Shown in pieces: positions 30,210 through 46,645 of a stretch of 64,000 nt of DNA. The first letter of the stretch is position 1, and each line of letters begins with the position of its first letter. The translations under genes were made by a program, and so were the position numbers. The notes beneath the pieces are model-generated. The model had not been told where the DNA came from. It ran no database searches and saw nothing but the letters and a program-made list of their open reading frames with translations. The stretch spans positions 299,485 through 363,484 of the forward strand of contig PASF01000001.1 of the NCBI GenBank assembly GCA_002711845.1, written 5' to 3'. Origin of the DNA: Gammaproteobacteria bacterium. GTDB taxonomy: Bacteria; Pseudomonadota; Gammaproteobacteria; Pseudomonadales; Pseudohongiellaceae.

Positions 30210-30384
30210 ACGCCTGTATGGAATATAGTTTCGGTCAACATACCCGCCAAGCCTATGGGGACTTCGGTTTCTACGCTCAAATCGTGCGGGTTTTTTATTG
30301 CCTGCAAATAGCGGGCAGGCCTGTAATGACTGCATTAGCCATAGCCGGGCGGGGCGTACTCGAGCAACAAACAGGTGCCCCCGC

Positions 30385-33300
30385 ATGATCCACGTCGGCC
30401 TGATCAACGAAAACGAATTCTACTCCGACCACTACCTGGCCGAGATCTTCAGTGGCGACATCCGCGAAGTGCTCTCCACCTGGCAGCAACACGAAGATGA
30501 AGCCCGCGAGATATCCAGAAACCGGGGCGAACCTGCTACCCAATACCGCGGCTATCGCACACCGCCCAACCGGCTTGCTTCCATGGCGCGCGAAATCCTG
30601 CAAGGCATCGAAGAAGCCGAGCGTCAGCGCCAGCCCAAAGAACGCCTGCTGCTCAGCCGCGCCTTGACCAAAAACCTGCTGGCAGCATTCGAGCTGCCCT
30701 GCGAACCTCGAACCCTGACCCTGGACGATGACACGGCACTGCCGGTACTCGCCGCCCTGAATGACGCGGCCGGTGATCCCCTGTTGTGGATACTGGAAGC
30801 CATCGCCCCCATGGGTGAAGAGTCCGATCAGGATCCGTTGTCATTGGCCGTGCAAGCCGAACAATGGGATGACGCCACTGTCGCCACACAGGGTGCCAAC
30901 AAAGCCCTGGCCGATGCCGACTGGCAAAAGCGCCTGTCCCAGCAAGTGTTCAGCCAAAGCAAGCCGCCACGCTGGGTGTTGCTCACCAGCCCCCGGCAGT
31001 GGTTGCTGCTGGATCGCACCAAGTTTGCCCAACACCGACTGTTGCGTTTTGACTGGGTAGAGCTGTTCAGCCGCCGCGAGACCGATACCTTCAAAGCTGT
31101 AAGCGTGTTGCTGCACCGCGATTCCCTGTTCGACAGCCAAGGTCAGGCCCTGCTTGATACGCTGGATGAAAACGCGCATAAACATGCTTATGGGGTCTCC
31201 GAAGACCTCAAGTACGCCCTGCGCGAATGTATCGAACTGCTTGGCAACGAAGCCGCCCGGCAACTCGAAGAGCGCGCTCGTCGTCACAACAAAAGCATTT
31301 ACACGCAAGGGGATTACGAACTCGACGCTGGCGAGCTGAGTCTGGAATGTCTGCGCTACATGTACCGGTTGTTGTTTCTGTTTTATATCGAGGCGCGCCC
31401 GGAACTGGGTTACGCGCCAGTCGGCAGCCAGACCTACCTGAAAAGTTATTCACTGGAACACCTGCGCGAGCTGGAGCTGGTGCCGCTGACCAGCGAAGCC
31501 GAGCGCCAGGGTCGTTACCTGCACGACTCGCTCACGCAGTTATTCCGTCTGGTTAACGAAGGCTACATCCCCAAGGACGACATGCTGGCCGCACACAGCC
31601 AGCAAAGCGGGCGCGACGCCTTCCGTATGCAGGCCTTAAAAAGCCATTTGTTTGACCCGGAGCGCACCCGCAATCTCAACCGCGTGGTGTTTCCCAATAT
31701 CCTGCTGCAGCAGATTATCCAGTTGATGTCGCTGTCGCGCGAAGCCAATGGCAGAAAGCGCCGTGGCCGTATCTCTTATGCGCAGTTGGGCATCAACCAA
31801 TTAGGCGCCGTGTACGAGGCGCTGCTCAGTTATCGTGGATTTTTTGCGCACGAAGAGTTGTACGAGGTCAAACCCGCCGATGCCAACTGGGATCCCTTGG
31901 GCACCGGGTTTTTTGTGAGCGCCAATGCCATTGCCGACTACAAAGAAGACGAAAAGGTCTACACCAAGAACGAGGCCGGCCACAAAGCACTGCGTAAATA
32001 CCCTAAAGGCGGATTTATTTATCGGCTGGCCGGTCGTGACCGGCAAAAGTCAGCGTCGTATTACACCCCGGAGGTGCTCACCCGCAGTCTGGTGAAGTAT
32101 GCGCTGAAAGAAGTCTGGAAAGAGCAGCTCGATCCCTTGCCTGATAACAAGGCGCGTGCCGAACGCTTATTGCAGCTCACCGTGTGCGAGCCAGCCATGG
32201 GCAGCGCGGCGTTCCTGAACGAAGCCATCAACCAGATTGCCGACAAGTATCTGGAGCTGGCGCAGCAATCGCGCAATGAACGCATTCCGCAACAGGATTA
32301 CCTGCGCGAAAAACAGAAAGTCAAAATGTACCTGGCCGATCACAGCGTCTTTGGTGTTGATCTGAACCCGGTAGCGGTGGAGCTGGCAGAGGTATCGCTG
32401 TGGCTGAACGCCTTGTCGGAAGACCGTTTTGTGCCGTGGTTTGGCCTGCAGCTTTACAACGGCAACTCCCTGGTGGGTGCGCGCCGCGAAGTCTACAACG
32501 CCAGTCAATTGACGCATACCGGCGAGGACAGTTGGTTAAAATCGGCACCCATCCGGCAGCCAATATCACAGCCCCGCGACATGGGTCAGATCTGGCACTT
32601 TCTATTACCTGACAGCGGCATGGCCAACTATGCCGACAAAGATGTCAAACAACTGTACCCAGAGCAGATCAAACGCATCAATGACTGGCGCAAACACTTC
32701 ACCAAAGCATTCGACAGAACCGATGCGCAGCGGCTGGAAGTACTCAGCAACCGTATTGCCGAACTCTGGCAGGATCACGCCGATGCGCTGCAGCGCCTGC
32801 GTCAGCGCACCACCGATCCGTACAGCATTTACGGTTTTCACTCACAGGGCAGCGCCACCAGTCTGCGCTTTAAAGATCAGGCATTGGATGAGGAATTGTT
32901 GGCCAGTCAACTGGCCAACGCCAGTGCCTACCGTCGCCTTAAACTGGCCATGGATTACTGGTGCGCGTTGTGGTTCTGGCCCATTGATCAGGCCGATGCC
33001 TTGCCGGATCGTGATGAATGGTTGCTGGACCTGGAGAACCTGCTGCTGGGCGACACCGTGATGACCGAGCGCCCCGGCGAGCAGCATCAGCTGTTTGCCA
33101 GCACCAACCCGGAACAGGGCAAACAATTTGTGGACAAATACGGTGTGGTGAACTTCAAGGTGCTGTTTGCCGCGTTTCCTCGCCTGGCCATGGCTAATCG
33201 TATTGCTGAAAAGCGGCGCTTCTTCCATTGGGAGCTGGCCTATGCCGATATCTTCAAATACCGCGGCGGTTTTGACCTGATTCTGGGTAACCCGCCGTGG

Positions 33301-35316
33301 TTAAAAGTGGAGTGGAACAGCGGCGATGTGCTGGGTGATTTTGAACCGCGTTTTGTGATTCGTAAGATGACAGCGCCGCAGTTGGCAAAACTGCGGGAAG
33401 AAACCTTCGAGCGAATTCCGGTATTGAAAAAAGCCTGGACGCGGGAGTTTGAAGAAAGCGAAGGGATGCAGAATTTTTTGAATGCGCAGAGTAATTATCC
33501 TTTGCTTGCAGGCCAGAAGGCCAATCTTTACAAGTGCTTTTTGCCGCGAGCCTGGGCAAATAGCAGCGACAAAGGCGTGAGTGGCTTTCTGCATCCTGAA
33601 GGCGTGTATGATGATCCAAACGGCGGGAGCTTTCGACGAGCGCTATATCCGCGCCTACGGGCGCATTTTCAGTATGCCAACGAAGTAAAGTTATTTGCGG
33701 AAGTTGATAATCATACGCGCTATAGCACCAATATCTACGGTCCATCCAACTCGCAATCCGCTTTTGTGACGATGGCCAATTTGCTGGTGCCGCAGACAAT
33801 TGATTACAGTTTTGGACACGATGGCAACGGAGGCGTACCAGGCATCAAAGAGGAAATTGAACTGCCGAATGGGCGTACTAAGGTGAAATGGTGCTTTGAG
33901 GGCCACCGTGATCGTGTTGTCCAGGTTACGACCGCCGAACTTGGTTTGTTCGCCAAGCTTTATGACGAAGCAGATACCGATGTCATTGAGGCACGACTGC
34001 CTGCATTGCATGCCCGACAGCTTCTCGCTGTGCTGGAGAAGTTCGCTGCCCAGCCGCGTCGATTGGGTGATTTGAAAGGAGAGTATTTCTCAACTCAACA
34101 CTGGAATGAAGTCAACGCACAGAACGATGGCACCATCAAGCGCGAGACCAGCTTTCCGGCCTCGTCTGAGCAATGGATACTGTCCGGCCCGCATTTCTTT
34201 GTAGGTAACCCGTTTTACAACACGCCCAGAGCAATTTGTAGTAGCAATAAGGCGTACGACAGTCTCGACCTGCAAACCCTGCCGGACGACTACCTGCCAC
34301 GCACAAACTACCTACCGGCATGCTCCCCGGATGAGTACCGTGTCCGTACGCCAAAAGTGCCGTGGATTGAGCCTGGGCTGAGTGAGCCTAAGCGGGTAAC
34401 GGAGTATTACCGTGTATGCGCAAGCAGGGGATTGAGTGTGTCCGGTGAACGCACACTCCAAGGGTCCATCATGTCAAAACAAGCTGCACACATTGATGGA
34501 GTCTTCAGCGTTGCGTTAAAGGATCAGCAATTGATTCCCGTAGTGACGGCACTCTGGTCGTCAGTCCCATTGGATTTTTTCGTTAAGTCTACTGGTAAGG
34601 GGGATCTTAGAAGTGATCTAGCCAAGCGGCTAGTCATTCCTCCCGAGTTGGTCAAGTCAAGAAGATGCTCGGTTAGAATACTGATTTCTTGTTGTCTGAC
34701 TGATGCATATAAGGATCTCTGGCAGTCTTCCTGGCAACCTGAGTTTTGTGAACAAAGCTGGTCCATTGCCGCTAGTAGCGACCATACTGGCGCCTGCGTC
34801 CTACCAAAGCAGTTTTTCACCGAACTCACCCCGGAATGGCAACGCAACTGTGCTCTGCGCAGCGACTACGCCCGCCGCCAAGCCTTGCTTGAAATCGACG
34901 TGCTCGTCGCACAGGCCCTTGGCCTTACCCTCGACGAGCTGCTCACCATCTACCGCGTGCAGTTCCCGGTCATGCGCCAATACGAAGCCGACACCTGGTA
35001 CGACCAGAACGCTCGCATCATCTTCACCCCCAGCAAAGGCCTCGTGGGTGTCGGTCTGCCTCGCAATGCCCGGAAGAGCGATCTTGCGGAAGGAACCAGT
35101 TATGCGATTATCAGTGGTTCTAAAATCGAATCCGGCATCGCACTCGGCTGGGAAGACATCAAGGACCTCAAATCCGGCAGTGTCCAAAAAACCTTCATGG
35201 ACGATACGCTGCCAGGCGGGCCCACCGAACGCACCATCGAATACAAAGCGCCATTCTTTAAACCTGACCGCGAGCAGGATTACCGAACTGCATGGCAGTT
35301 CTTTGAGAGGCTATGA
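30385..35316 (+). CDS. Large N6-adenine DNA methyltransferase, DrmMI-like
   Basis: 1643 residues from the ATG at 30385 (MIHVGLINENEFY). SAM motif I is CEPAMGSAAFLNEA (~601-614) and the catalytic motif IV is NPPW (~968), the pattern of gamma-class N6-adenine methylases of the Eco57I/PglX/DrmMI type. Long N- and C-terminal parts probably read the target site. In DISARM and BREX such enzymes mark host DNA as self. No PD-(D/E)xK site is evident in it. The two reverse transcriptase genes follow after only 16 bases, so they are likely read through from this gene. Confidence 0.75.
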   Translation: MIHVGLINENEFYSDHYLAEIFSGDIREVLSTWQQHEDEAREISRNRGEPATQYRGYRTPPNRLASMAREILQGIEEAERQRQPKERLLLSRALTKNLLAAFELPCEPRTLTLDDDTALPVLAALNDAAGDPLLWILEAIAPMGEESDQDPLSLAVQAEQWDDATVATQGANKALADADWQKRLSQQVFSQSKPPRWVLLTSPRQWLLLDRTKFAQHRLLRFDWVELFSRRETDTFKAVSVLLHRDSLFDSQGQALLDTLDENAHKHAYGVSEDLKYALRECIELLGNEAARQLEERARRHNKSIYTQGDYELDAGELSLECLRYMYRLLFLFYIEARPELGYAPVGSQTYLKSYSLEHLRELELVPLTSEAERQGRYLHDSLTQLFRLVNEGYIPKDDMLAAHSQQSGRDAFRMQALKSHLFDPERTRNLNRVVFPNILLQQIIQLMSLSREANGRKRRGRISYAQLGINQLGAVYEALLSYRGFFAHEELYEVKPADANWDPLGTGFFVSANAIADYKEDEKVYTKNEAGHKALRKYPKGGFIYRLAGRDRQKSASYYTPEVLTRSLVKYALKEVWKEQLDPLPDNKARAERLLQLTVCEPAMGSAAFLNEAINQIADKYLELAQQSRNERIPQQDYLREKQKVKMYLADHSVFGVDLNPVAVELAEVSLWLNALSEDRFVPWFGLQLYNGNSLVGARREVYNASQLTHTGEDSWLKSAPIRQPISQPRDMGQIWHFLLPDSGMANYADKDVKQLYPEQIKRINDWRKHFTKAFDRTDAQRLEVLSNRIAELWQDHADALQRLRQRTTDPYSIYGFHSQGSATSLRFKDQALDEELLASQLANASAYRRLKLAMDYWCALWFWPIDQADALPDRDEWLLDLENLLLGDTVMTERPGEQHQLFASTNPEQGKQFVDKYGVVNFKVLFAAFPRLAMANRIAEKRRFFHWELAYADIFKYRGGFDLILGNPPWLKVEWNSGDVLGDFEPRFVIRKMTAPQLAKLREETFERIPVLKKAWTREFEESEGMQNFLNAQSNYPLLAGQKANLYKCFLPRAWANSSDKGVSGFLHPEGVYDDPNGGSFRRALYPRLRAHFQYANEVKLFAEVDNHTRYSTNIYGPSNSQSAFVTMANLLVPQTIDYSFGHDGNGGVPGIKEEIELPNGRTKVKWCFEGHRDRVVQVTTAELGLFAKLYDEADTDVIEARLPALHARQLLAVLEKFAAQPRRLGDLKGEYFSTQHWNEVNAQNDGTIKRETSFPASSEQWILSGPHFFVGNPFYNTPRAICSSNKAYDSLDLQTLPDDYLPRTNYLPACSPDEYRVRTPKVPWIEPGLSEPKRVTEYYRVCASRGLSVSGERTLQGSIMSKQAAHIDGVFSVALKDQQLIPVVTALWSSVPLDFFVKSTGKGDLRSDLAKRLVIPPELVKSRRCSVRILISCCLTDAYKDLWQSSWQPEFCEQSWSIAASSDHTGACVLPKQFFTELTPEWQRNCALRSDYARRQALLEIDVLVAQALGLTLDELLTIYRVQFPVMRQYEADTWYDQNARIIFTPSKGLVGVGLPRNARKSDLAEGTSYAIISGSKIESGIALGWEDIKDLKSGSVQKTFMDDTLPGGPTERTIEYKAPFFKPDREQDYRTAWQFFERL

Positions 35317-35332
35317 AATTCATGGACGATGC

Positions 35333-36589
35333 ATGATGTACGATCAATCCTACAATAGAAACTCCCTCAATAAGTTAATCCGACGAGGAGATTTCAGAGA
35401 TACCAAAGGTATGCCCCATGAAGTCTTCAGGGAGCAATTGATACAGCTTGCCATCAGAACAGCATCGGATGGGTTTGAGACAATCAATCCATTAGAGAAG
35501 ATCCATCTGAAGAAAAAGCCTGCTTATAAGGCTGCGAATCTGCATGATCAGTTAGTACTTCGCAAGATGGGAGCTAATCTAAAAAGGCATTTGACTAAAA
35601 CGCCTACTAACAGAAGTCGGGTGACGTCTAGCTTGCGGAGCTTGTTGGAGGAAGCGGTTCCCTACACGATAGTGCGATTGGATATCAGCGCATTTTATGA
35701 ATCAATTAATAGCGCGATTTTGACTGAGAACATTGAATCACTTACCACCCTTAATCCATACACGAAATTGCAGCTTAGAAATTTACTAAAACATTACGAG
35801 AATTTGGGTGGAACTGGTGTCCCAAGAGGTGTTGGGCTAAGCTCGATACTGTCTGACTTATACATGCAGAATTTTGATTCAGAAGTCTCAAGCCTGGATC
35901 AAGTTTACTACTATGCGCGGTATGTCGATGACATGATACTCGTTGTTAATCCGAAGAAAAGTGCGGTTATTGTTTCAGAAATTGAGAATATATTGCCCAC
36001 AGGATTGAGGCTTAACGAAAAGAAAACTAGATGCTGCTCAGCCTGTTCGGGCATTAATACATCTGACAAAATGTGTTATCGAAATTTAACTTTGGTAGTT
36101 GAGTTTTTGGGCTATGAATTTCTAGTCGAGAATCCTGAAAAAGCGCCTGATCGAGGCCAAAGAAGAAGCGTTCATATAGAAATATCCAGAGCAAAAATAG
36201 CTCGCATTAAAAAAAGAATGATGCTCTCACTGCTATCGTTTGCTCGGAATGGAGACTTTGAGCTCATCACAGATAGATTTAAGTATCTTTCATCAAATTT
36301 TGGTATCACAGATAAAAATACAGGAAAGAGGGTTCTGGCGGGAATTTTTTATGGCTATCCATTGCTGGATGATAATGCTGAATCATTGCGTGAACTGGAT
36401 GCTTTTCTAAGAGCGCTGATCTTCCATCAACATGGGAGATTCAGTGGCGCGAATGCAGTGGCTTTTAGTAGCAAGCAGCGCCGGAAATTATTAGCCGTTA
36501 GCTTCGTTAAAGGGCATCGGGAGAGGAATTATGTAAATTTCTCGACGAGACGCATAGGGAAAATTCAGGAGTGCTGGCGCCATGGCTAA
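35333..36589 (+). CDS. drt3a: Antiviral reverse transcriptase Drt3a (UG3 type)
   Basis: 418 residues. Reverse transcriptase palm motifs are clear: VRLDISAFYESIN (~112-124), GVPRGVGLSSILSDL, and the active site YARYVDDMILV with YVDD at ~196-199. There is no maturase, endonuclease or msr/msd context, so it is neither a group II intron nor a retron enzyme. Size, the N-terminal RRGDF segment and the pairing with a larger second reverse transcriptase match DRT type 3, where Drt3a and Drt3b act with a noncoding RNA against phage. Its coding sequence is visibly AT rich compared with the methylase gene 16 bases upstream. The start is one of two adjacent ATGs. Confidence 0.75.
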   Translation: MMYDQSYNRNSLNKLIRRGDFRDTKGMPHEVFREQLIQLAIRTASDGFETINPLEKIHLKKKPAYKAANLHDQLVLRKMGANLKRHLTKTPTNRSRVTSSLRSLLEEAVPYTIVRLDISAFYESINSAILTENIESLTTLNPYTKLQLRNLLKHYENLGGTGVPRGVGLSSILSDLYMQNFDSEVSSLDQVYYYARYVDDMILVVNPKKSAVIVSEIENILPTGLRLNEKKTRCCSACSGINTSDKMCYRNLTLVVEFLGYEFLVENPEKAPDRGQRRSVHIEISRAKIARIKKRMMLSLLSFARNGDFELITDRFKYLSSNFGITDKNTGKRVLAGIFYGYPLLDDNAESLRELDAFLRALIFHQHGRFSGANAVAFSSKQRRKLLAVSFVKGHRERNYVNFSTRRIGKIQECWRHG

Positions 36590-38603
36590 CCATAAAATTA
36601 AAAGTAGAATTAAAGTCAGAAAAGGCGATTACTCCCGTGTATTAATTACAGAAACTCAACCGTATGAACTTCCATTACAGATATCCAATGATGGTTTTTA
36701 CGAAATAGTTAATAAGCGAAGTGTGTCGGGTTTTGATCCAATATTGGGGCTTCTGATTGATAAAATAGTATTTATTGATGAAACGAAAGAGCTTTTCAAA
36801 GAGACAGTAAGATCAGCTGCGGTACCCTTCAGCTATAAAATCAATAAAGGAGCTGATGATTACCGAAGATTATCCTTGATGCATCAAAGGTCTCAATGGA
36901 GAGTTGCGCGTTTTTATGAAGAGTACGCCGATTTGATACTTGATTATTGTGCTGAAAGTCCAGCCAGTATTCGAGCACCCTCCAAAATTGCTGGGAGCTT
37001 CTATGTAAAGAAAGGAGCTGCTGCATACTTTTACGATCTTAAAGATTCTGAAAAAAGACAATCATCGGATGACGAGCATGCGGCTCAGAGATGTTCATCA
37101 TTTTTCTCTTATCGTGGAGTGGACAGGCTCTATAAATTCTTCTTGAGTAGGGAATATTTGTTGCTCGAGAAGAAATTCAGAGTGCTGAGGACATTGGATG
37201 TGTCGAAGTGTTTCGATAGCATTTACACGCACTCAATTTCTTGGGCTGTGAAGGATAAGCAGATAAGCAAGGAGAATACAGCCAGGTATGCATTCGGTGG
37301 GAATTTCGACGAATTGATGCAGGGGGCAAATCATCAAGAAACAAACGGGATACTTATAGGGCCTGAGCTGAGTCGCATTTTCGCAGAGGTCTTGCTTCAG
37401 AAAGTCGATCTACTGGTTATCAGAGAGCTGAGTCAGTCTTCCAGATTTGGGGGTCAAGGACTTGCTTATGGTAAGGACTATATATTCAAGAGATATGTCG
37501 ATGATATATTTGTCTTTGCGAACACTCAGGATGTCGCAAAGTTCGTGTGCGATGTTGTTTCAGAGAAGTTGCTGGGATTTAATCTGCACGTAAACAAGCA
37601 TAAATCACTTGTTTTTGAGCGGCCTTTTGTTACTACGAAATCAAAAGTAATAAACTCTGCAAAACGCTTATCAGATCGTTTTTTTGAAAAATTATGTAGA
37701 ATTGACGACGAAAATCTGGTTCCCGTGAAGATCTACAACACTTGGGCAGTGTCCAGAGATTTCATAGAACAGGTTAAGGGATTGTGTGCGGAAAACCAGA
37801 TATCCTACGATGAAGTTTCAGGTTTTCTCACTGCATACCTAACCGAGCGTGTGAAGAGAACTGTCTTGTCAGAACCATCAGAACTACCAGGAAACGAAGC
37901 CGAATATTGTGACTTTCTGTCTGTCATGATGGAGGTCATGGTTTTTTTGTATCAAGTTGCGCCTTCGGTCAGTTCTTCGTACAAGTTAAGTACCTCCATG
38001 ATTTTGATTATACGGTTTTCAAAGAACAAGCTACCTGATTGTTATGGCTTCATGTCTCAGAAAATTTTTGAGCTAATGCATGAGGCTCTTGAGAGCTTGA
38101 GTGCAAAAGACGCGCCAGGAGTTAAGCGTTTTTTACATCTGGAGGCTGTCAATCTATTGCTTGCTTCTAGGGAATTGCCTCCACCTTACGAGGTAAGCTC
38201 TGAAGTTTTAAAAGACATTTTTAACATTGACACCGGAATGTCTTATTTTGATATCGTAAGTTTTCTGTTTTACGCGAGGGACGATAGGAAGTATAAGCTG
38301 CTTCGGAATCAGGTGATAAAGTATACAAATGACTATCTTTCGGAACAGAAGGATGCATGTACCGACAGTGAAATATCGCATCTTCTTTTTGACATGTTAT
38401 GCTGCCCATACGTATCAGTAGCACTCCGTGCAAAATGGCTCAGGCGCTTTTGCAAATCAACAGATGTGGGTCGGCAGTCCGTTGTCGATTCCGAGAAATC
38501 AATTAATTATGTTGACGCTCATGGGTTATATTTTCACTGCAATTGGTCTGAACTAAACTTGCTATTGTCTCTCGAGAAAAAGGAGTTGAAGAGGGTTTAC
38601 TGA
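36582..38603 (+). CDS. drt3b: Antiviral reverse transcriptase Drt3b (UG8 type)
   Basis: 673 residues; its ATG overlaps the drt3a stop by eight bases, implying coupling. The palm has LDVSKCFDSIYTHSISWA (~206-223), NGILIGPELSRIFAE and the active site RYVDDIFVF with YVDD at ~305-308. The ~300-residue C-terminal region is helical and not a known nuclease. The SKCFDSIYTHS block is characteristic of the second DRT3 enzyme. In described DRT3 systems, as I recall them, Drt3a copies an ACACAC template in the noncoding RNA and Drt3b makes the complementary repeat strand. The gene is AT rich, consistent with recent transfer. Confidence 0.75.
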   Translation: MANHKIKSRIKVRKGDYSRVLITETQPYELPLQISNDGFYEIVNKRSVSGFDPILGLLIDKIVFIDETKELFKETVRSAAVPFSYKINKGADDYRRLSLMHQRSQWRVARFYEEYADLILDYCAESPASIRAPSKIAGSFYVKKGAAAYFYDLKDSEKRQSSDDEHAAQRCSSFFSYRGVDRLYKFFLSREYLLLEKKFRVLRTLDVSKCFDSIYTHSISWAVKDKQISKENTARYAFGGNFDELMQGANHQETNGILIGPELSRIFAEVLLQKVDLLVIRELSQSSRFGGQGLAYGKDYIFKRYVDDIFVFANTQDVAKFVCDVVSEKLLGFNLHVNKHKSLVFERPFVTTKSKVINSAKRLSDRFFEKLCRIDDENLVPVKIYNTWAVSRDFIEQVKGLCAENQISYDEVSGFLTAYLTERVKRTVLSEPSELPGNEAEYCDFLSVMMEVMVFLYQVAPSVSSSYKLSTSMILIIRFSKNKLPDCYGFMSQKIFELMHEALESLSAKDAPGVKRFLHLEAVNLLLASRELPPPYEVSSEVLKDIFNIDTGMSYFDIVSFLFYARDDRKYKLLRNQVIKYTNDYLSEQKDACTDSEISHLLFDMLCCPYVSVALRAKWLRRFCKSTDVGRQSVVDSEKSINYVDAHGLYFHCNWSELNLLLSLEKKELKRVY

Positions 38604-38790
38604 TTCCGTACACTAGTGGCGGGAAGGTCAGGGGTCTTACCCTACTCAAGCTTCAAAACTTGCAACCAAGAGATTAGCGATAGCGTGATTTTGCGGTTTT
38701 CTGCAGATAGCTTACACCTGTGAACGTTGACGGGTTGCCAGCGTTTTGCATGAGCTTCTTCGGAAGCACACACTCAGGGGCTCTTGATCT
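38604..38790 (+). ncRNA. Candidate DRT3 noncoding RNA
   Basis: Non-coding DNA directly after drt3b with several hairpins. GCTTC-TTCG-GAAGC (38754-38767) is a textbook UUCG tetraloop stem, and the very next bases are ACACAC (38768-38773). Just upstream AACGTTG (38723-38729) pairs with CAGCGTT (38739-38745), with one G-U pair. DRT3 systems use a structured RNA carrying an ACACAC template, so this is a good positional and sequence candidate. The exact ends are unknown, and I am not certain on which side of the genes the RNA lies in characterised systems. Confidence 0.5.
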
Positions 38791-38798
38791 TCCACCCT

Positions 38799-40037
38799 TC
38801 AATCCCACAGTTTGCTGACGGGGCAAGCAAAACAATTCTCAACCCCCAGCGGCAACACATGGCTGCCGCCATACAGCAGCACGCCACCCCTGAAATCCTT
38901 GCCAGCCCGTTCCGCCAGCCGCTTCAGTCCCGCGCCATCTTTTTGAGTATCAACGGTCACGGCCTTTTTGACTTCCACACCCCAGACTTCGCGTCCCCGC
39001 TCGATAACAATATCGACCTCTACCTGATCTTTGTCCCGATAGTGCGTCAGCCGCAACTCGTCATCCAGCGCACTGGCCTGACAGACGATCTGTTGCAGCA
39101 CAAAACTTTCTAGCAGATGGCCAAACGCGGTGCTCTGGGTCAGCCACTCAGCCGGTGTCAATTTGCTGAGCGTGGCAGCAAGGCCTGAATCAACCACGTG
39201 AGTTTTGGGCGACTTGATCAGTCGCTTTGCGTGGTTGCGGTGCCACGCAGGCAAGCGGCGGATCAGAAATAGTCGCTCCAGTATGCTGAGATACTTCTCG
39301 GTGGTTTCCCGTTGCACGCCAAGGTCCTGGGCCAGGCTGTTGACGTTGAGCAGCGATGCAGTGCGGTAGGCCAGCAATTCAATCAGGCGGGACATCGTGG
39401 CCTCGTCGTTGATATTGGCAATGTCGTGCACGTCGCGTTGAATGATGGCGTTCACATATTGTCGGTGCCACTGACGTGCCCGCACCAGTGTGCGTTGTAC
39501 GGGCTCCGGATAGCCGCCTTTACACAGCAATTCTGCCAGAACGGGTATGTCAGGGCTGAATTCGGCAATCTGTATGCTGAAGCGGCCGTCCAGCAAAGTG
39601 GTCAGAAACGTCGGCGGCCTGCGGTGCAGTTCGGCCATGGAAAGCGGGTGCAGGTGCAGCACTTCCATACGACCGGCCAGCGAGTCCTGTATTTTGGGCA
39701 GCAACAGCAGGTTGGCTGACCCGGTCAGCAGAAAGCGCCCCGGCGTTCGTTGCTGATCTACCGCGCTCTTGATGGCGATCAGCAGGCCCGGCGCGCGCTG
39801 AACTTCATCCAGCGTCACTTGTGCAGGCAGGCTTTGCACAAACCCCTCGGGGTCGTCGTTGGCCAGTTGGCAGATGGCGCTGTCATCCAGAGTGATATAG
39901 GCTCGATTGGGTGCCAGACTGCGTGCCAAGGTTGTTTTACCAGACTGCCGTGGTCCTAACAGGCAAACTACGGGTGTGTCCGCCAGTGCTATTTGCAGTC
40001 GGCTCTTCAGGGCTCTGGGGTAGAGGTCGCTGGTCAC
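38799..40037 (-). CDS. AAA ATPase with DUF4143 domain
   Basis: 412 residues. Walker A is GPRQSGKTTLA (~28-38), Walker B-like TLDEVQRAP (~94-102), sensor LLTGSANLLLLP (~118-129). The C-terminal DUF4143 part ends in a PD-(D/E)xK-like segment (VDIVIERGREVWGVEVKKA). Such AAA_14/DUF4143 proteins are widespread accessory ATPases, sometimes in toxin or defence loci, without a settled function. It converges on the DRT3 region and diverges from the large helicase gene; both starts flank the 23-bp repeat array, so its transcription may be co-regulated with the helicase operon. Confidence 0.75.
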   Translation of the reverse strand: MTSDLYPRALKSRLQIALADTPVVCLLGPRQSGKTTLARSLAPNRAYITLDDSAICQLANDDPEGFVQSLPAQVTLDEVQRAPGLLIAIKSAVDQQRTPGRFLLTGSANLLLLPKIQDSLAGRMEVLHLHPLSMAELHRRPPTFLTTLLDGRFSIQIAEFSPDIPVLAELLCKGGYPEPVQRTLVRARQWHRQYVNAIIQRDVHDIANINDEATMSRLIELLAYRTASLLNVNSLAQDLGVQRETTEKYLSILERLFLIRRLPAWHRNHAKRLIKSPKTHVVDSGLAATLSKLTPAEWLTQSTAFGHLLESFVLQQIVCQASALDDELRLTHYRDKDQVEVDIVIERGREVWGVEVKKAVTVDTQKDGAGLKRLAERAGKDFRGGVLLYGGSHVLPLGVENCFACPVSKLWD

Positions 40038-40058
40038 TTGCTTAGCCTTCTATTTTAT

Positions 40059-40150
40059 CGTCCAATTGCGGCTTATCATAGCGTCCATTTGTTGGTTTTC
40101 CTAGCGTCTATTTGCATGATGGCAAGCCGTCTATTTGATGGTAGCATACG
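40059..40150. repeat. Four direct repeats at exact 23-bp period
   Basis: The core CGTCYAWTTG starts at 40059, 40082, 40105 and 40128: CGTCCAATTG, CGTCCATTTG, CGTCTATTTG, CGTCTATTTG. The 13 bases between cores are not conserved. The array fills most of the 152-base spacer between the divergent ATPase and helicase genes. Regular spacing of about two helical turns on one face suggests cooperative binding of a regulator, as with iterons or operator arrays. There are no flanking cas genes, and the conserved unit is too short for CRISPR. Confidence 0.75.
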
Positions 40151-40189
40151 GTGCGGGAAGGACATAAATGATTACAAAAAGGACACCCA

Positions 40190-43100
40190 ATGCTCCCCAG
40201 CATAGTCGCTTCAGAACTTAAAGATGCCGTGGCCCAATACCTGCGTACGGCCTTCCCCATCGCGACGTCGTATTTCCAGGGCGAAAGCTCAGTTCAGGGT
40301 GCATCGGCCGATCCACATGCGCTGATTGATGCCTTGATCGCGCGACCTGGCGAGCTGTTCAAAGGTCCGTATTTGGACATCAAGCTGCCGTTTCGCCTTG
40401 CTGACAATGCTACATTGCCCTTCCGTCATCTCAGCCTGCCGTTCACACCCTATCGGCACCAGCAATTGGCCTTTCAGCGCCTGTGTGGTGACGCACCGGA
40501 GTCAACCGTTGTTGCTACCGGTACCGGATCGGGCAAGACCGAGTGCTTTATGTTGCCTGTGCTGGATGATTGCCTGCACCGGCGGGAGCGGGGCATCAAG
40601 ACGATTATTGTCTACCCGATGAACGCCCTGGCTACCGACCAGGCAAGGCGTTTTGCCAAAGAAGTGGCAGCGTTGGAGACCAAACTGACAGTAGGGTTGT
40701 TTGTTGGCGGCGAGGGTAGCAAGCCGCATCAAAGCATGGGGCCAGAGAATGTTATCACCTGCCAGAAAACCCTGCGCCAGAACCCACCGGATGTGCTGCT
40801 GACCAACTATAAAATGCTGGACTTCCTGCTTATCCGCCCCAAGGATCAGCCGCTGTGGCGATACAACACGCCCGGCACGCTACGTTATTTGGTGGTGGAT
40901 GAGCTCCACTCATTTGATGGCGCACAGGGCACGGATCTGGCCTGCCTCATTCGACGTCTGCGGGATCGTCTTGAGGCTGGCCAAGAGCTGGCGTGTGTCG
41001 GAACATCAGCCACGATGGGCAGTGATGATGCGCCAGCATTGCTGGATTATGCCAGTGAAGTCTTTGCTGCCACGTTTACGCCCGACGGCATCATCGGTGA
41101 GGATCGTGTCACGCCACAGGAGTACCTGCACGCTGGCTTCGACCCCAATGACGGCAAAGACCCTGTTCGTTTCTATAACTGGCCAACGGAAGATTTGCGC
41201 CGTCTTGACCCTGCCCAATACGACGATGCCAATGACTATCTGTTTCATCAGGCCCGGCTGTGGTTTGCTGACCTGCCGTTATCTGAGGTGCCGCAGCTTA
41301 ATGCCAGTCAACCGCGCCGTCGAGCAGAGGAAGCGGTTCGCTTGGGCGAATTGCTGCATGCGCATCATGCCTTTCATCAGTTGATTCATTTGTGCTCGCG
41401 ATTGCAGCCGATGGATGAGCTGGCCAGCGCGTGGGCACCTGAAGGTGGTGCCGACAATGTGAAGGTGTCACGGTTACTGTTGCTCAGCATAAGTTCCCTG
41501 ATAGCGGCTGCGCGCTTATGGGATAAAAAAGATCATGTCGATCCACGAAAGTGGTGCCAACCCTTGTTGCAGGTTCGCCAGCAGTTGTGGCTTCGTGAGC
41601 TACGGCGTCTGGTGTGTTCGGTGCCGGCAGACGATGCATTGCCGGTTATCCGTTTTGCCGATGACTTGCGTGACCCCCTGAACCCGTTGCATTTGCCATT
41701 GATGCACTGCCGTGAGTGTCACCTTGCGGCGTGGGGTGCGGTGGCCAGGCGTTCAGACCCCCATCTTAATGGCGATTTACAGGATTTTTATCAGGCCTGG
41801 TTTGGTTATTCCTCACAGGTGCGGTTGCTGGTGCCAGTCTGCGAAACTCAGGAAATAGCAGAGCCCACGCAGACGTTTTGTCCGGTGTGCTTACGCTTGC
41901 AGGCGGACCAAGGCAATGGATCGTGCAGTGAATGCGAGAAAGCCACGCTGCGACGTGTCTGGGTGCCGGACATGTTACGGCCAAACAACAACCAACAGGA
42001 TAAAGGTCCGCAAAGCCACCATAACTGCCCCGACTGCGGCGCGCGTGATGCCATGGTTGTGATGGGCTATCGCGCGGCGACGCTCACTGGCGTGATGACC
42101 GGCAAATTGTTTGCTACGCCCTACAATGATGATTACAAACTGATCGCGTTTTCTGACTCAGTGCAAGATGCCGCACATCGGGCAGGTTTTCTGGGTGCCA
42201 ATACCTGGCGTCAGGTGGTTCGTCAGACTATTGCCATCTGGCTGAAGCAGAAAAATGTACCCCTGCCATTGAGCGAAGTGAAGGAGTTGCTGCCCATGTT
42301 CTGGCGTGACCAGATTGGGCACGATGGGCGCTTTTGTGGTCTGTTTATTCCGCCCAATCTGGAGTATCACCGCGACTACGATTACCTACAGCGGCACAAT
42401 CGGCTGCCGGAGCGAACTGAGCTCACCAGTATGATCAGCAAGCGGCTGGCCTGGGAGTGTGTGGCTGAGTTTGGGCGCCGTTCGGGGGTTGGGCGTTCAC
42501 TTGAACGCACGCAGGCGGCGTCAGTCGCCTGGGATACCGCCGTGCTCGAGCCGGTTGTTGCAATGGCTGCCAGCCAGCTCAGGGAAGAAATTGGCAGTCT
42601 TCGTGAGGTGAGCGATGACAGTTTTATGCAGTTTATACTTGGTTTGCTGCATCATTGGCGAGTTATTGGTGCGATCTACGATCCGGTGCTTGAGGGTTAT
42701 CTTGCGGCGCGCGGTAAGGAATTCCAGATTAACCGAATCCCCTGGATGCCCGGTTTTGGCAAATCCCAGCGGCCGCCTGCTGCGATTTCTTTGCAGCACC
42801 TGAGTAACAATTTCGAAGCGCTCACTGTTGCCAATAGAGATACCTGGGCTGTGCGTTGGTTGAAAAAGACGTTGGGGTCACAAGCACTGTTTGCCGCTGC
42901 CGATGCACGACAAGTATTCAGTATTTTGATAAATGCGCTGAGTCGCAAAAACTGCTTGAAAGAAATTATCGTAAACGATCAGTCAGTCTGGATGCTTAAC
43001 CCTGACAAGTTGTTGATTGAGGCCGCCGCTGCGCAGGTAGCCTGTGATGGGTGCCGCCATCGCTACACCGTCAGCCCAGCCATGTTGTCGCTTTATGAGC

Positions 43101-46100
43101 GAATGCCATGCTTGCGCTCTAACTGCGCCGGTTACCTGCATCCGTTCAGTGAGAGCCCATCCACGGTCCGTGACTTTGTGCTGACCGCACCGCGGCGACT
43201 GGTGCCTCATGAGCACACGGGTTTGCTGCTGCGCGAAGAGCGGGAGGCCGTTGAGCGGTCCTTTATCGGCGGCACAGAACCCTGGGACATCAACTTGTTG
43301 TCTGCGACGCCTACGCTGGAAATGGGTATTGATATCGGCGATCTGTCGTCGGTATTTCTGTGTTCCGTCCCGCCAGCGCAAGCCAACTATTTACAGCGTA
43401 TCGGTCGCGCCGGGCGCAAAGATGGAAACGCGCTAGCCGTGACGGTCGCCAACGGTCAGAACCACGATCTGTTTTTCTACAGTGACCCCACGGAGATGAT
43501 GATTGGCGCGGTACAAACGCCCGGCGTCTTTCTCAACGCGGTTGCCGTGCTGGAGCGACAGCTGATTGCCTATTGTTTTGATCGATGGGTGATCACGGGT
43601 ATCGACGAATCAGCTATTCCGGGGCAGCTACGCAAAGTGTTGGATGCGGTAGAAAAGCAACATACAGATCGATTTCCGTATAACTTGATTGCTTTTGTAG
43701 CTGCCAACAAGCAGGCACTGTTGGCCGGCTTCCTGGCCATGTTTACCCATCTGGATGAGGATGCTACGGGCTATCTGGATAATTTTATCAGTGAAGCTGG
43801 CGAAGGCTCCTTGAGCTGGCGATTGGTCAACCGCTTGCAGGGACTGGTTGATGAGCGCGTTGCGTTGGTCAAAAAGACCCGTATGTTGAAACTGGAACGT
43901 GAGCGGTTAAGTCAACAGCCCGAGGATGAAGCGCAGCAGGAAGCACTAAATGAGCTGGACAGGGAGCGTAATGCATTTCTGTCGCTGCTATTCAGTCTGA
44001 ACGCTCAGCTCACGCTCAACTTCTTTACCGATGAAGGCCTGCTACCCAATTACGCGTTCCCGGAAGAAGGCGTCACCTTGCGCTCGGTGATTCTGCGCCG
44101 CAAGTCAGAAACCGCGAGTGAAGACGAATCACCATACGAGAAAATTTCCTATTCCTTCCAGCGACCCGCCCAGGCAGCGCTGAGTGAGTTAGCACCTAGC
44201 AGCACGTTCTACGCCATCAGTCGGGAGATGGAAATCGAGCAAATCGATCTGCAACTTTCCAGGCCTGAAGACTGGCGGTTCTGCAATCGCTGCCAACACA
44301 CCGAGCGTGTTGATCCTGAAGACAGGCATAGTGCCTGTCCGAAATGCGGCAGTGCACAGTGGGCCGACAGCAAGCAGCGCCACACGGTGCTAAAACTGCG
44401 CCAGGTCTACGCGACGGTGGATGACCGCAGCAGTCGCATCAGCGATGAGGCTGAGCAACGCGAACCCGTCTTCTTCAATAGACAGATGCTGGTGGATATT
44501 CCGGACCAAAACAGTATCGCCGGATTCCGCTTAAAAAGTGATGAGTTGCCGTTTGGTTTTGAGTTTCTGCGCCGAGCAGTATTTAGGGAAGTAAATTTTG
44601 GTCAACGCGGCGGTGAGTCCAATGTTTTCTCAGTAGCTGGTGATGACTGCTCGAGACAAGGGTTTAGAATCTGCCGACATTGCGGCAAAGTGCAGAAGAA
44701 TTTTTACCGTCGGCACGAACACCCGCACGCCTATACTTGCAAGCTACGCAAGCAGCCGGAACTGGATGGTCCGGAAGAATATTTTGAGAGTCTCTACCTG
44801 TATCGTGAGCTGCAGTCGGAAGCCATTCGTATCCTGCTACCTCTGAGCGAGGTGGCTTATTCGGATGAGAAGCTGCATTCATTTGTGGCGGCACTGAATC
44901 TTGGCTTGCGCGCTTACTTCAAGGGCAGCGTTCAGCACCTGGAAGTGACCGATATGCGAGAGCCCGGCAGTTCCAGCAGTGGTGAGCGTATTTTCCTGGT
45001 TGTGTATGACAAAATTCCCGGCGGCACAGGCTTTTTGAAAGAGCTGATGCGCTCGCCAGATAATCTGCTCAAGGTCCTGGAATTGGCGCGCGACAAGCTG
45101 ATGAGCTGCGCGTGTGCGGATCAGGAACATCTGGACGGTTGTTATCGGTGTATTCTGGCCTACCGCAACGCGCGCAATATGGCCAGTATCTCGCGCCAGG
45201 GGGCGGCGCAACTAATGGGCGATATTCTGGCGTTGCGCGAGCAGATTGAACCGGTGGCGTCCTTGAGTGATATCGACACCAATGTGCTGATCGAAAGCAA
45301 ACTGGAGCAGCGCTTTGTTGATGCCTTGGGTATGTTGCCGGGTGCGCATGTCTCGCGTATTTTGTTAAACGGCAAGAAGGCCAGCCTGCTGACTTTACCG
45401 GGCGCTGACGGGCGGCCCATTGCCTGGCATGTTGAGCATCAAGTGAAGATGGGGCCGTTAGAAGGTGTACTGCTCAATACCCAGATTGATGTGGTATTGA
45501 CTCCAGCACGCGAGGAGCAGGCTTCCCAGTATCGACCCATCGCGGTGTATGTTGACGGTCTGCAGTATCACCATGACATTGTGGAAGATGATGTCGCCAA
45601 ACGATCGGCATTACTGTGCAGCAAAAAATTCTGGGTGTTTTCCCTAAACTGGGATGATCTACCTGAACCTGGCAAGCTCCCCGTGCCGCTGGACAGTAAT
45701 ATCATGCGTTTGCCAGGGACAGTCCAGCGTCCATTGAGTGATCTTTATGATCAGCTTGCCACTACGGCGGGCGCAGAGAGCACCGCGCAGCTCGCTGGTA
45801 CAACAGCCTGGGGCAGCCTGGAGCTGCTATCGCGCATCCTGCGTGACCCGGCATTGACGCGCGTTGAATTGCCCAATAGAGCAGCACACAGGGCATTGAC
45901 GACCTTGTTGCCACAAAGGGCGAATGATATGGAGCTGCGCGCTGGGCTGGCTTCCGCAATGCAGATGTTAGCACCGCTCTCTATGGCTCAGCGGCTAGCA
46001 GCAGATGACATTGATCAGGTGCCCGGCGGCTTCAGCGAGGTACTTGTTAACGCCGAGCCGCTTATTGAACTGCTAACGGCGGTGCCCATAGCGACGATGC

Positions 46101-46645
46101 GACAGCCATCGATAGAGCTGCTGAAAGATACACTGGTGATGCATCTATGCTTCGATGATCGAGAGCAGCAATTGAATGAGGCATTTAAGGCCGGCTGGCG
46201 AACGTTCTGGCACGCGGTTAATCAGCTTCAGTTTTTGCCACAATTCTCCATGGCCACGCGCAAGCTGGTTGATAGCGGCATCGCTGAGCAGATATGGCAG
46301 GCTGCGGTCTATAATTCTGGCGACACGCCGCAATCTCAGCAAATAGCATTGGGTGTTACATCGGATTCAGCCTGGACCGAGGTGTATGAATTGACCGCGC
46401 TTGATCATGCTGCAATAACAAAAATGCAGGCAATGGGTTTGCCTGCCCCTGAGGTTGGTGTTGACCTTATGGATGATCATGGCGAAATTGTGCTGTCTGG
46501 AAACGTAGTTGAACTTTGTTGGACACAGTCACGTGTGGCGGTGGTAACTGATGCAGCAGCAGAATTGCAGGGTTGGCATTTTATTGTCGCGGATGAAGGC
46601 ATGCTGGATAAATTAACGGCATTAAAAGAGCAGGGAGTGATTTGA
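40190..46645 (+). CDS. Giant DEAD/DEAH helicase with DUF1998, DruE-like or DrmA/DrmB fusion
   Basis: 2151 residues. Walker A GTGSGKTEC (~108-116), DExH-type DELHS (~235-239), GTSATMG (motif III), and QRIGRAGRKDG (motif VI, ~1067-1077) define an Hrq1-like helicase. Several zinc-ribbon-like Cys pairs follow (CRECH, CPVC, CNRC, CRHCG). The DUF1998 domain has GGTGFLKEL and CSCAC-type Cys with CYRCILAYRNARN (~1610-1670). A later segment, IDVVL then VYVDGLQYH, resembles a VSR-like PD-(D/E)xK nuclease. Druantia DruE is a comparable huge DUF1998 helicase; in DISARM the same parts are split as DrmA and DrmB. Ribosome site AAGGA. It is coupled to the next gene. Confidence 0.75.
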   Translation: MLPSIVASELKDAVAQYLRTAFPIATSYFQGESSVQGASADPHALIDALIARPGELFKGPYLDIKLPFRLADNATLPFRHLSLPFTPYRHQQLAFQRLCGDAPESTVVATGTGSGKTECFMLPVLDDCLHRRERGIKTIIVYPMNALATDQARRFAKEVAALETKLTVGLFVGGEGSKPHQSMGPENVITCQKTLRQNPPDVLLTNYKMLDFLLIRPKDQPLWRYNTPGTLRYLVVDELHSFDGAQGTDLACLIRRLRDRLEAGQELACVGTSATMGSDDAPALLDYASEVFAATFTPDGIIGEDRVTPQEYLHAGFDPNDGKDPVRFYNWPTEDLRRLDPAQYDDANDYLFHQARLWFADLPLSEVPQLNASQPRRRAEEAVRLGELLHAHHAFHQLIHLCSRLQPMDELASAWAPEGGADNVKVSRLLLLSISSLIAAARLWDKKDHVDPRKWCQPLLQVRQQLWLRELRRLVCSVPADDALPVIRFADDLRDPLNPLHLPLMHCRECHLAAWGAVARRSDPHLNGDLQDFYQAWFGYSSQVRLLVPVCETQEIAEPTQTFCPVCLRLQADQGNGSCSECEKATLRRVWVPDMLRPNNNQQDKGPQSHHNCPDCGARDAMVVMGYRAATLTGVMTGKLFATPYNDDYKLIAFSDSVQDAAHRAGFLGANTWRQVVRQTIAIWLKQKNVPLPLSEVKELLPMFWRDQIGHDGRFCGLFIPPNLEYHRDYDYLQRHNRLPERTELTSMISKRLAWECVAEFGRRSGVGRSLERTQAASVAWDTAVLEPVVAMAASQLREEIGSLREVSDDSFMQFILGLLHHWRVIGAIYDPVLEGYLAARGKEFQINRIPWMPGFGKSQRPPAAISLQHLSNNFEALTVANRDTWAVRWLKKTLGSQALFAAADARQVFSILINALSRKNCLKEIIVNDQSVWMLNPDKLLIEAAAAQVACDGCRHRYTVSPAMLSLYERMPCLRSNCAGYLHPFSESPSTVRDFVLTAPRRLVPHEHTGLLLREEREAVERSFIGGTEPWDINLLSATPTLEMGIDIGDLSSVFLCSVPPAQANYLQRIGRAGRKDGNALAVTVANGQNHDLFFYSDPTEMMIGAVQTPGVFLNAVAVLERQLIAYCFDRWVITGIDESAIPGQLRKVLDAVEKQHTDRFPYNLIAFVAANKQALLAGFLAMFTHLDEDATGYLDNFISEAGEGSLSWRLVNRLQGLVDERVALVKKTRMLKLERERLSQQPEDEAQQEALNELDRERNAFLSLLFSLNAQLTLNFFTDEGLLPNYAFPEEGVTLRSVILRRKSETASEDESPYEKISYSFQRPAQAALSELAPSSTFYAISREMEIEQIDLQLSRPEDWRFCNRCQHTERVDPEDRHSACPKCGSAQWADSKQRHTVLKLRQVYATVDDRSSRISDEAEQREPVFFNRQMLVDIPDQNSIAGFRLKSDELPFGFEFLRRAVFREVNFGQRGGESNVFSVAGDDCSRQGFRICRHCGKVQKNFYRRHEHPHAYTCKLRKQPELDGPEEYFESLYLYRELQSEAIRILLPLSEVAYSDEKLHSFVAALNLGLRAYFKGSVQHLEVTDMREPGSSSSGERIFLVVYDKIPGGTGFLKELMRSPDNLLKVLELARDKLMSCACADQEHLDGCYRCILAYRNARNMASISRQGAAQLMGDILALREQIEPVASLSDIDTNVLIESKLEQRFVDALGMLPGAHVSRILLNGKKASLLTLPGADGRPIAWHVEHQVKMGPLEGVLLNTQIDVVLTPAREEQASQYRPIAVYVDGLQYHHDIVEDDVAKRSALLCSKKFWVFSLNWDDLPEPGKLPVPLDSNIMRLPGTVQRPLSDLYDQLATTAGAESTAQLAGTTAWGSLELLSRILRDPALTRVELPNRAAHRALTTLLPQRANDMELRAGLASAMQMLAPLSMAQRLAADDIDQVPGGFSEVLVNAEPLIELLTAVPIATMRQPSIELLKDTLVMHLCFDDREQQLNEAFKAGWRTFWHAVNQLQFLPQFSMATRKLVDSGIAEQIWQAAVYNSGDTPQSQQIALGVTSDSAWTEVYELTALDHAAITKMQAMGLPAPEVGVDLMDDHGEIVLSGNVVELCWTQSRVAVVTDAAAELQGWHFIVADEGMLDKLTALKEQGVI

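Follow-up and report, generated by a model that had tools for sequence, protein, structure and literature searches.

A probable DRT3 noncoding RNA with a candidate ACACAC template downstream of drt3b in a gammaproteobacterial defence region

According to PMC13174585, the noncoding RNA (ncRNA) of DRT3 lies downstream of drt3b and carries an ACACAC template that is copied by DRT3a; mutants of this hexamer lost both defence and poly-(dTdG), and the stem-loop adjoining the template was subject to read-through. The stretch analysed here, a window of 64,000 nucleotides from a member of the Pseudohongiellaceae, holds a drt3a/drt3b pair followed by a short non-coding segment with the same hexamer, which raises the question of whether this segment encodes the DRT3 ncRNA. 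The initial annotation had suggested so from the sequence, together with the ACACAC template copied by Drt3a that PMC13174585 reports. With high confidence, the best explanation is that the segment is the ncRNA of a complete DRT3 anti-phage system, for which the single steps of an E. coli-type mechanism are presumed. Gene content, gate and primer residues, RNA homology, conserved structure and a near-invariant hexamer predicted to be unpaired were observed or computed in this work.

The drt3 pair and its non-coding flank

The features discussed below are, in order of position:

35336–36589, + strand: drt3a, Class 2 (UG3) reverse transcriptase, 417 aa (PADLOC Drt3a, E 2.9e-130; RVT_1)
36582–38603, + strand: drt3b, Class 1 (UG8) reverse transcriptase, 673 aa (PADLOC Drt3b, E 8.3e-202)
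38604–38796, + strand: very probable DRT3 ncRNA (extent as given by covariance model R2, built without the window)
38622–38635, extended by 38640–38643, + strand: 5′ strand of the closing helix P1 (predicted fold; P1 covariation)
38700–38753, + strand: long inner hairpin (predicted fold; its base covaries in the closest relatives)
38754–38767, + strand: hairpin GCTTC-UUCG-GAAGC abutting the putative template (sequence; predicted fold)
38768–38773, + strand: ACACAC, putative Drt3a template for poly(dTdG) (predicted unpaired, 0.95; hexamer conservation)
38774–38777, + strand: TCAG, nearly invariant in the closest relatives (15-locus alignment A3)
38776–38793, + strand: 3′ strand of P1, beginning 2 nt past the hexamer (predicted fold; covariation)

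Both reverse transcriptase genes are open and overlap by 8 bases, and their PADLOC matches identify the pair as a complete DRT3. Among solved structures, the top matches are the Drt3a and Drt3b chains of PDB 9z6y (E 1.3e-71 for Drt3a against 9z6y_A and E 2.7e-122 for Drt3b against 9z6y_H) and, for Drt3b, also 26cz (26cz_A, E 3.6e-88). The YVDD catalytic motif is present in both enzymes, at residues 305–308 in Drt3b. In the characterised Drt3b, E22 (or D) is reported as the adenosine gate, R241 as the cytidine switch and Y666 as the primer (PMC13174585); as read from an alignment, with the residue-number offset set from the terminal tyrosine, these align to E29, R265 and Y673 of the window protein. 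Among 90 aligned Drt3b rows, which take in L003, L056 and the wrong-frame row L071 and whose genome rows are the best 80 of 493 relatives, 58 had E in the E29 column, 28 had D and four a gap, R265 was R in 89 (the exception being L071), and the last tyrosine was present in 88 (exceptions L071 and the truncated L062).

Two observations concern variant Drt3b proteins. The second Asp of YVDD is replaced by Asn in seven of the 90 rows (L086, L093, L098, L099, L102, L106 and L109), and ACACAC is nonetheless found downstream in all seven. On the E. coli plasmid CP083496.1 (L037), the Drt3b match spans two ORFs annotated as hypothetical, and the gene appears to be split; ACACAC still follows 43 nt downstream.

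The DRT3 pair sits inside a dense defence region (window 27321–35316 and 38799–46645), with a DrmD-like helicase, a type IIG/DrmMI-like methylase, a 2151-aa DruE-like helicase gene and a convergent AAA_14/DUF4143 gene ending at 38799, the last being the PADLOC candidate PDC-S01. Within the genus, and its own genome apart, the 2151-aa gene gave weak partial matches only, in 13 of 14 other genomes.

The non-coding DNA 3′ of drt3b spans 38604–38798 (195 nt), from the end of drt3b at 38603 to the end of the convergent ORF at 38799. It is the sole sizeable non-coding DNA adjoining drt3a/drt3b, as the initial annotation had stated; 5′ of drt3a only 19 nt are free, between the end of the preceding ORF at 35316 and the start of drt3a at 35336. 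The coordinates proposed for the hairpin and the abutting hexamer were likewise confirmed, with GCTTC (38754–38758), TTCG (38759–38762), GAAGC (38763–38767) and ACACAC (38768–38773) all exact in the sequence. From base composition, approximately 0.03 copies of ACACAC would be expected in the 195-nt stretch. A promoter and terminator scan, which returned fewer sites than the shuffle means, found no promoter-like or terminator-like site in 38604–38798, and the nearest + strand promoter-like match was at 38221–38249, within drt3b. Rfam at gathering thresholds returned only a tRNA in the 64-kb window and no family in the ncRNA stretch.

Predicted fold and homology of the RNA

The interval 38604–38796 (+) very probably encodes a small, structured DRT3 ncRNA. 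The predicted RNA measures approximately 190 nt and is closed by a long helix that had been missed initially. The predicted order is the 5′ strand of P1, the inner hairpins, the hairpin 38754–38767, eight unpaired nucleotides beginning with ACACAC, and the 3′ arm of P1. The fold energy was −68.2 kcal/mol (z −3.21 against dinucleotide shuffles), and one of 200 shuffles was as good. The predicted probability of the hexamer being unpaired was 0.95 in the window; over 98 unique of 105 loci (viral loci included; genome loci the best 80 of 493 relatives) its mean was 0.79 vs. 0.40 for all hexamers, exceeding 0.8 in 58 loci and not in the remainder.

A second stem named in the initial annotation, at 38723–38745, is readable in the sequence (AACGTTG/CAGCGTT, seven pairs, one of them G-U) but absent from the predicted fold, the minimum-energy structure placing its bases in the larger hairpin 38700–38753. 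A pairing of TGA (38751–38753) with TCA, by which the hexamer would become a bulge, was considered and rejected; it competes with the minimum-energy fold. As three of the four pairs of this helix (helix 6) never vary in the closest relatives, the substitution counts are no test of the pairing.

In a MAFFT alignment of 15 loci, changes on both sides were observed in 20 of 26 pairs, and each of five covariation measures was reached by 0–1 of 500 shuffles. Pairing amounted to 89.8% vs. 76.0% in shuffles and 37.8–51.4% with slid partner columns, a comparison that favours the structure over its slid versions, since these 15 sequences had also served to predict it. Double changes occurred in seven of the eight pairs of P1 alone (15 loci), and both-side changes in all five pairs of helix 3, the base of the hairpin 38700–38753. 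P1 was also assessed by an alignment-free test on the 80 of 85 loci left after removal of near-duplicates and short arms (genome loci the best 80 of 493 relatives): pairing with the locus's own arm averaged −27.5 kcal/mol vs. −17.7 kcal/mol with arms of other loci, none of 5000 permutations was as good, and the own partner was best in 30 loci and among the top five in 61, the window's ranking sixth.

Homology was assessed with two covariance models, R1, whose training set includes the window, and R2, built from 15 relatives without it. R2 gave a single match in the window, at 38604–38796 (+) with 34.6 bits and E 4.9e-8, and a single match at E up to 1 in the whole 3.59-Mb genome, at the same place (E 2.7e-6). 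Because this model was built without the window, the window RNA can be called a homologue without circularity; the covariance-model search suggested initially as a check thus came out in favour of the RNA, with a model of our own. The 15 rows of alignments A3 and A5 were picked as the closest loci, and L052 joined A5 after R1 had found it, so that R2 is independent of the window but no random sample. The window breaks some of the model pairs in the R2 alignment, including three that continue P1 inwards. Searching R1 over 91 sources yielded 21 matches at E up to 1, of which 15 were training rows; among the others, three were new with E < 1e-4 (L052, L057 and L083), two were weak although correctly placed (L084 and L063), and L112 was out of place. 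Both models are clade-bound and recover close relatives only.

The hexamer among DRT3 loci

A scan of genome contigs with the window Drt3b alone found no relative, and an alignment was therefore used as the query. The sampled loci comprised eight from plasmids, one from an E. coli chromosome and 80 from genomes (the best 80 of 493 relatives). Dropped before counting were L003 (judged to be the genome of L056, its contig being equal in length and its surroundings the same), L062 (with 15 nt of sequence past the gene) and L101 (whose contig contains no stop). In the 88 assessable bacterial and plasmid loci, window included and genome loci the best 80 of 493 relatives, ACACAC occurred within 300 nt 3′ of drt3b in 85, at a distance of 43–235 nt (median 149), and was absent from three. 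Where 600 nt were available, and with the same best 80 of 493 genome relatives, it was found in 79 of 82 loci within bases 1–300 vs. 2 of 82 within bases 301–600. The 82 loci of this position test and the 81 deduplicated loci of the hairpin test below exclude L003 and L071; of the two ACACAC copies of L057 the second was used, and the first elsewhere. The comparison of homologous loci called for at the outset thus shows the motif to be kept, and the initial judgement that chance was an improbable source agrees with the roughly 0.03 copies expected, the fold outperforming shuffles and the recurrence in 85 of 88 loci (genome relatives the best 80 of 493).

Viral contigs carried ACACAC in 20 of 23 loci with long Drt3b matches; the remaining three, whose drt3b frame runs into an early stop, have ACACAC 225–243 nt past the end of the match. 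Viral loci L152–L159, which match part of the protein only, were left out. By record title, hexamer-bearing loci belong to Alpha- and Gammaproteobacteria, Bacteroidota, Planctomycetota, Verrucomicrobia and Gemmatimonadota, several being MAGs. In a sample of the class, 30 of 369 genomes had a DRT3b match (E up to 0.001), full-length in two, the window's own genome and G202. Among 56 relatives, a Drt3b match was found in two, the window's own genome and L122. The latter, from the same genus, carries a second, strongly diverged DRT3 (Drt3b 34% identical, ACACAC 41 nt 3′ of drt3b), a degree of divergence that suggests a separate acquisition within the genus.

The abutting hairpin is conserved less strictly than the hexamer. 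With genome loci again the best 80 of 493 relatives, a strict 5-bp stem ending 0–1 nt before ACACAC was present in 24 of 81 loci vs. 5.3% of control positions, leaving 57 loci that fail the rule; the 24 comprise 19 different stems, among them GCTTC/GAAGC, GCGAC/GTCGC, GCGGT/ACCGC and GCAAC/GTTGC. Under a looser rule, five of 85 rows (L003 and L056 included; genome loci the best 80 of 493) had no stem at all. Elsewhere the abutting hairpin has GAAA, GCAA, GTAA or longer loops; the UUCG loop first described is not conserved. A near-invariant template beside rapidly evolving stems agrees with the published proposal that what Drt3a makes has to match an unvarying product of Drt3b, poly(dCdA). Conservation of the hexamer appears to reach well outside E. 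coli, and the window contributes a further clear DRT3, RNA included, to those already known.

Exceptions were found in Snodgrassella, the genus of L059, where four of 14 genomes gave a Drt3b match, full-length in three (L059, L060 and L125). These three have open reverse transcriptases that carry YVDD, and tyrosine is the last residue of their Drt3b; the gate residues were checked in L059 and L060. All three lack ACACAC on the + strand from drt3b up to the following gene or to the limit of the retrieved sequence. Searches upstream and downstream of these loci, and of two of the genomes with R1, revealed no convincing RNA, the one weak match (E 0.23) leaving the template part uncovered. Over the 1.5 kb past drt3b, L060 and L125 are 95% identical, and L059 and L060 share no significant similarity; an 11-base match of the latter two, GGACTTGCTGA, was rejected as no better than chance (BLAST E 0.43). 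In L117, at approximately 5990–6190, the place of the template is taken by TCACACGC, whose CACAC is flanked by a hairpin and a strong P1 and is perhaps a shortened template.

For the three Snodgrassella loci, the template RNA may have been lost, relocated or replaced. That this branch of DRT3 lost or replaced its cis ACACAC RNA, with L117 working with CACAC, is a tentative proposal that we hold to be rather doubtful. If these systems are active, the RNA would lie elsewhere with another template, or Drt3b would act without a partner strand from Drt3a. The exceptions offer natural tests of the matching between the Drt3a product and poly(dCdA); they concern relatives, the RNA of the window being canonical. 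No prior report on the Snodgrassella case was among the papers listed by the literature searches.

The CACAC of L117 also bears on the boundaries of the template. The RNA could be correctly identified and yet be copied over a longer stretch or within other bounds, such as CACACAC with the hairpin-closing C; a C precedes the hexamer in 79 of 98 unique loci (genome loci the best 80 of 493 relatives). In the window, however, that C is predicted to be paired as the base of the hairpin, and the template given in PMC13174585 is ACACAC; different bounds appear unlikely. Much less probable still is that the RNA has decayed or is unused in this strain, for instance in an inactive system. In its favour, the window comes sixth rather than first among 80 loci in P1 pairing (genome loci the best 80 of 493), and some R2 model pairs are broken; against this, both reverse transcriptases are open, YVDD is present in Drt3a, the catalytic, gate and primer residues are present in Drt3b, and hairpin and hexamer are intact in a fold with z −3.21. 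That the stretch serves drt3b only as a terminator or 3′ untranslated region, with ACACAC there by chance, is scarcely credible: it lies directly 3′ of drt3b and is stem-rich, but the scan found no terminator-like site in it, the hexamer recurs in 85 of 88 loci (genome relatives the best 80 of 493), the covariance-model match is unique and P1 covaries across loci.

Presumed mechanism and comparison with characterised systems

With the stretch read as the DRT3 ncRNA, ACACAC is likely the Drt3a template in the window RNA. By analogy with the E. coli systems, we infer transcription, template use, product and defence in the window's organism. The hexamer would be copied repeatedly by Drt3a, with resetting, to give poly(dTdG), and the hairpin on its 5′ side, which is likely the counterpart of published stem-loop 4, would mark the end of the template. 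Drt3b, needing no nucleic-acid template, would synthesise poly(dCdA) primed from its own tyrosine Y673, and the products of both enzymes would anneal into repeat DNA taking part in abortive infection.

EcoDRT3, as presented in PMC13174585, resembles the window in having its RNA 3′ of drt3b, with a hairpin, ACACAC and then the 3′ arm of a closing helix. The Drt3b of viral contig L139 is identical to PDB 26cz_A at 664 of 666 residues (alignment reading), and length and residue numbering suggest that 26cz belongs to that paper. The Drt3b of viral contig L133 is nearly equal to 9z6y_H. The RNAs predicted downstream of drt3b in both contigs share the topology of the window: hairpin, ACACAC, 3′ arm of P1. 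In L139 the hexamer lies 129 nt past drt3b vs. 165 nt in the window, the minimum-energy fold pairs the first A of ACACAC and leaves the other five bases free, and a terminator-like hairpin follows P1, whereas the window has none. In L133, of the PDB 9z6y/9z6z type, the hairpin abuts ACACAC and eight unpaired nucleotides precede P1 as in the window, although the hairpin is short, the hexamer lies at 125 nt, and the 9z6y Drt3b is far diverged from that of the window (E 2.7e-122). PDB entries 9z6y and 9z6z each contain six Drt3a and six Drt3b chains.

Among the best 80 of 493 relatives, the closest RNAs were those of Burkholderiales and other loci (Uliginosibacterium, Polaromonas, Acidovorax, Caballeronia and Acinetobacter). 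Their Drt3b proteins are 38–43% identical to that of the window and their stem sequences differ, whereas ACACACTCA is invariant in 15 of 15 aligned loci, window included. The ncRNAs of DRT9 and DRT10, likened here by their published description, resemble that of DRT3 in that repeat DNA is made from a short template in an ncRNA loop, and differ in their products (PMC13174585). The window locus is a further example of the system already described in E. coli, the mechanism of which was published in 2026.
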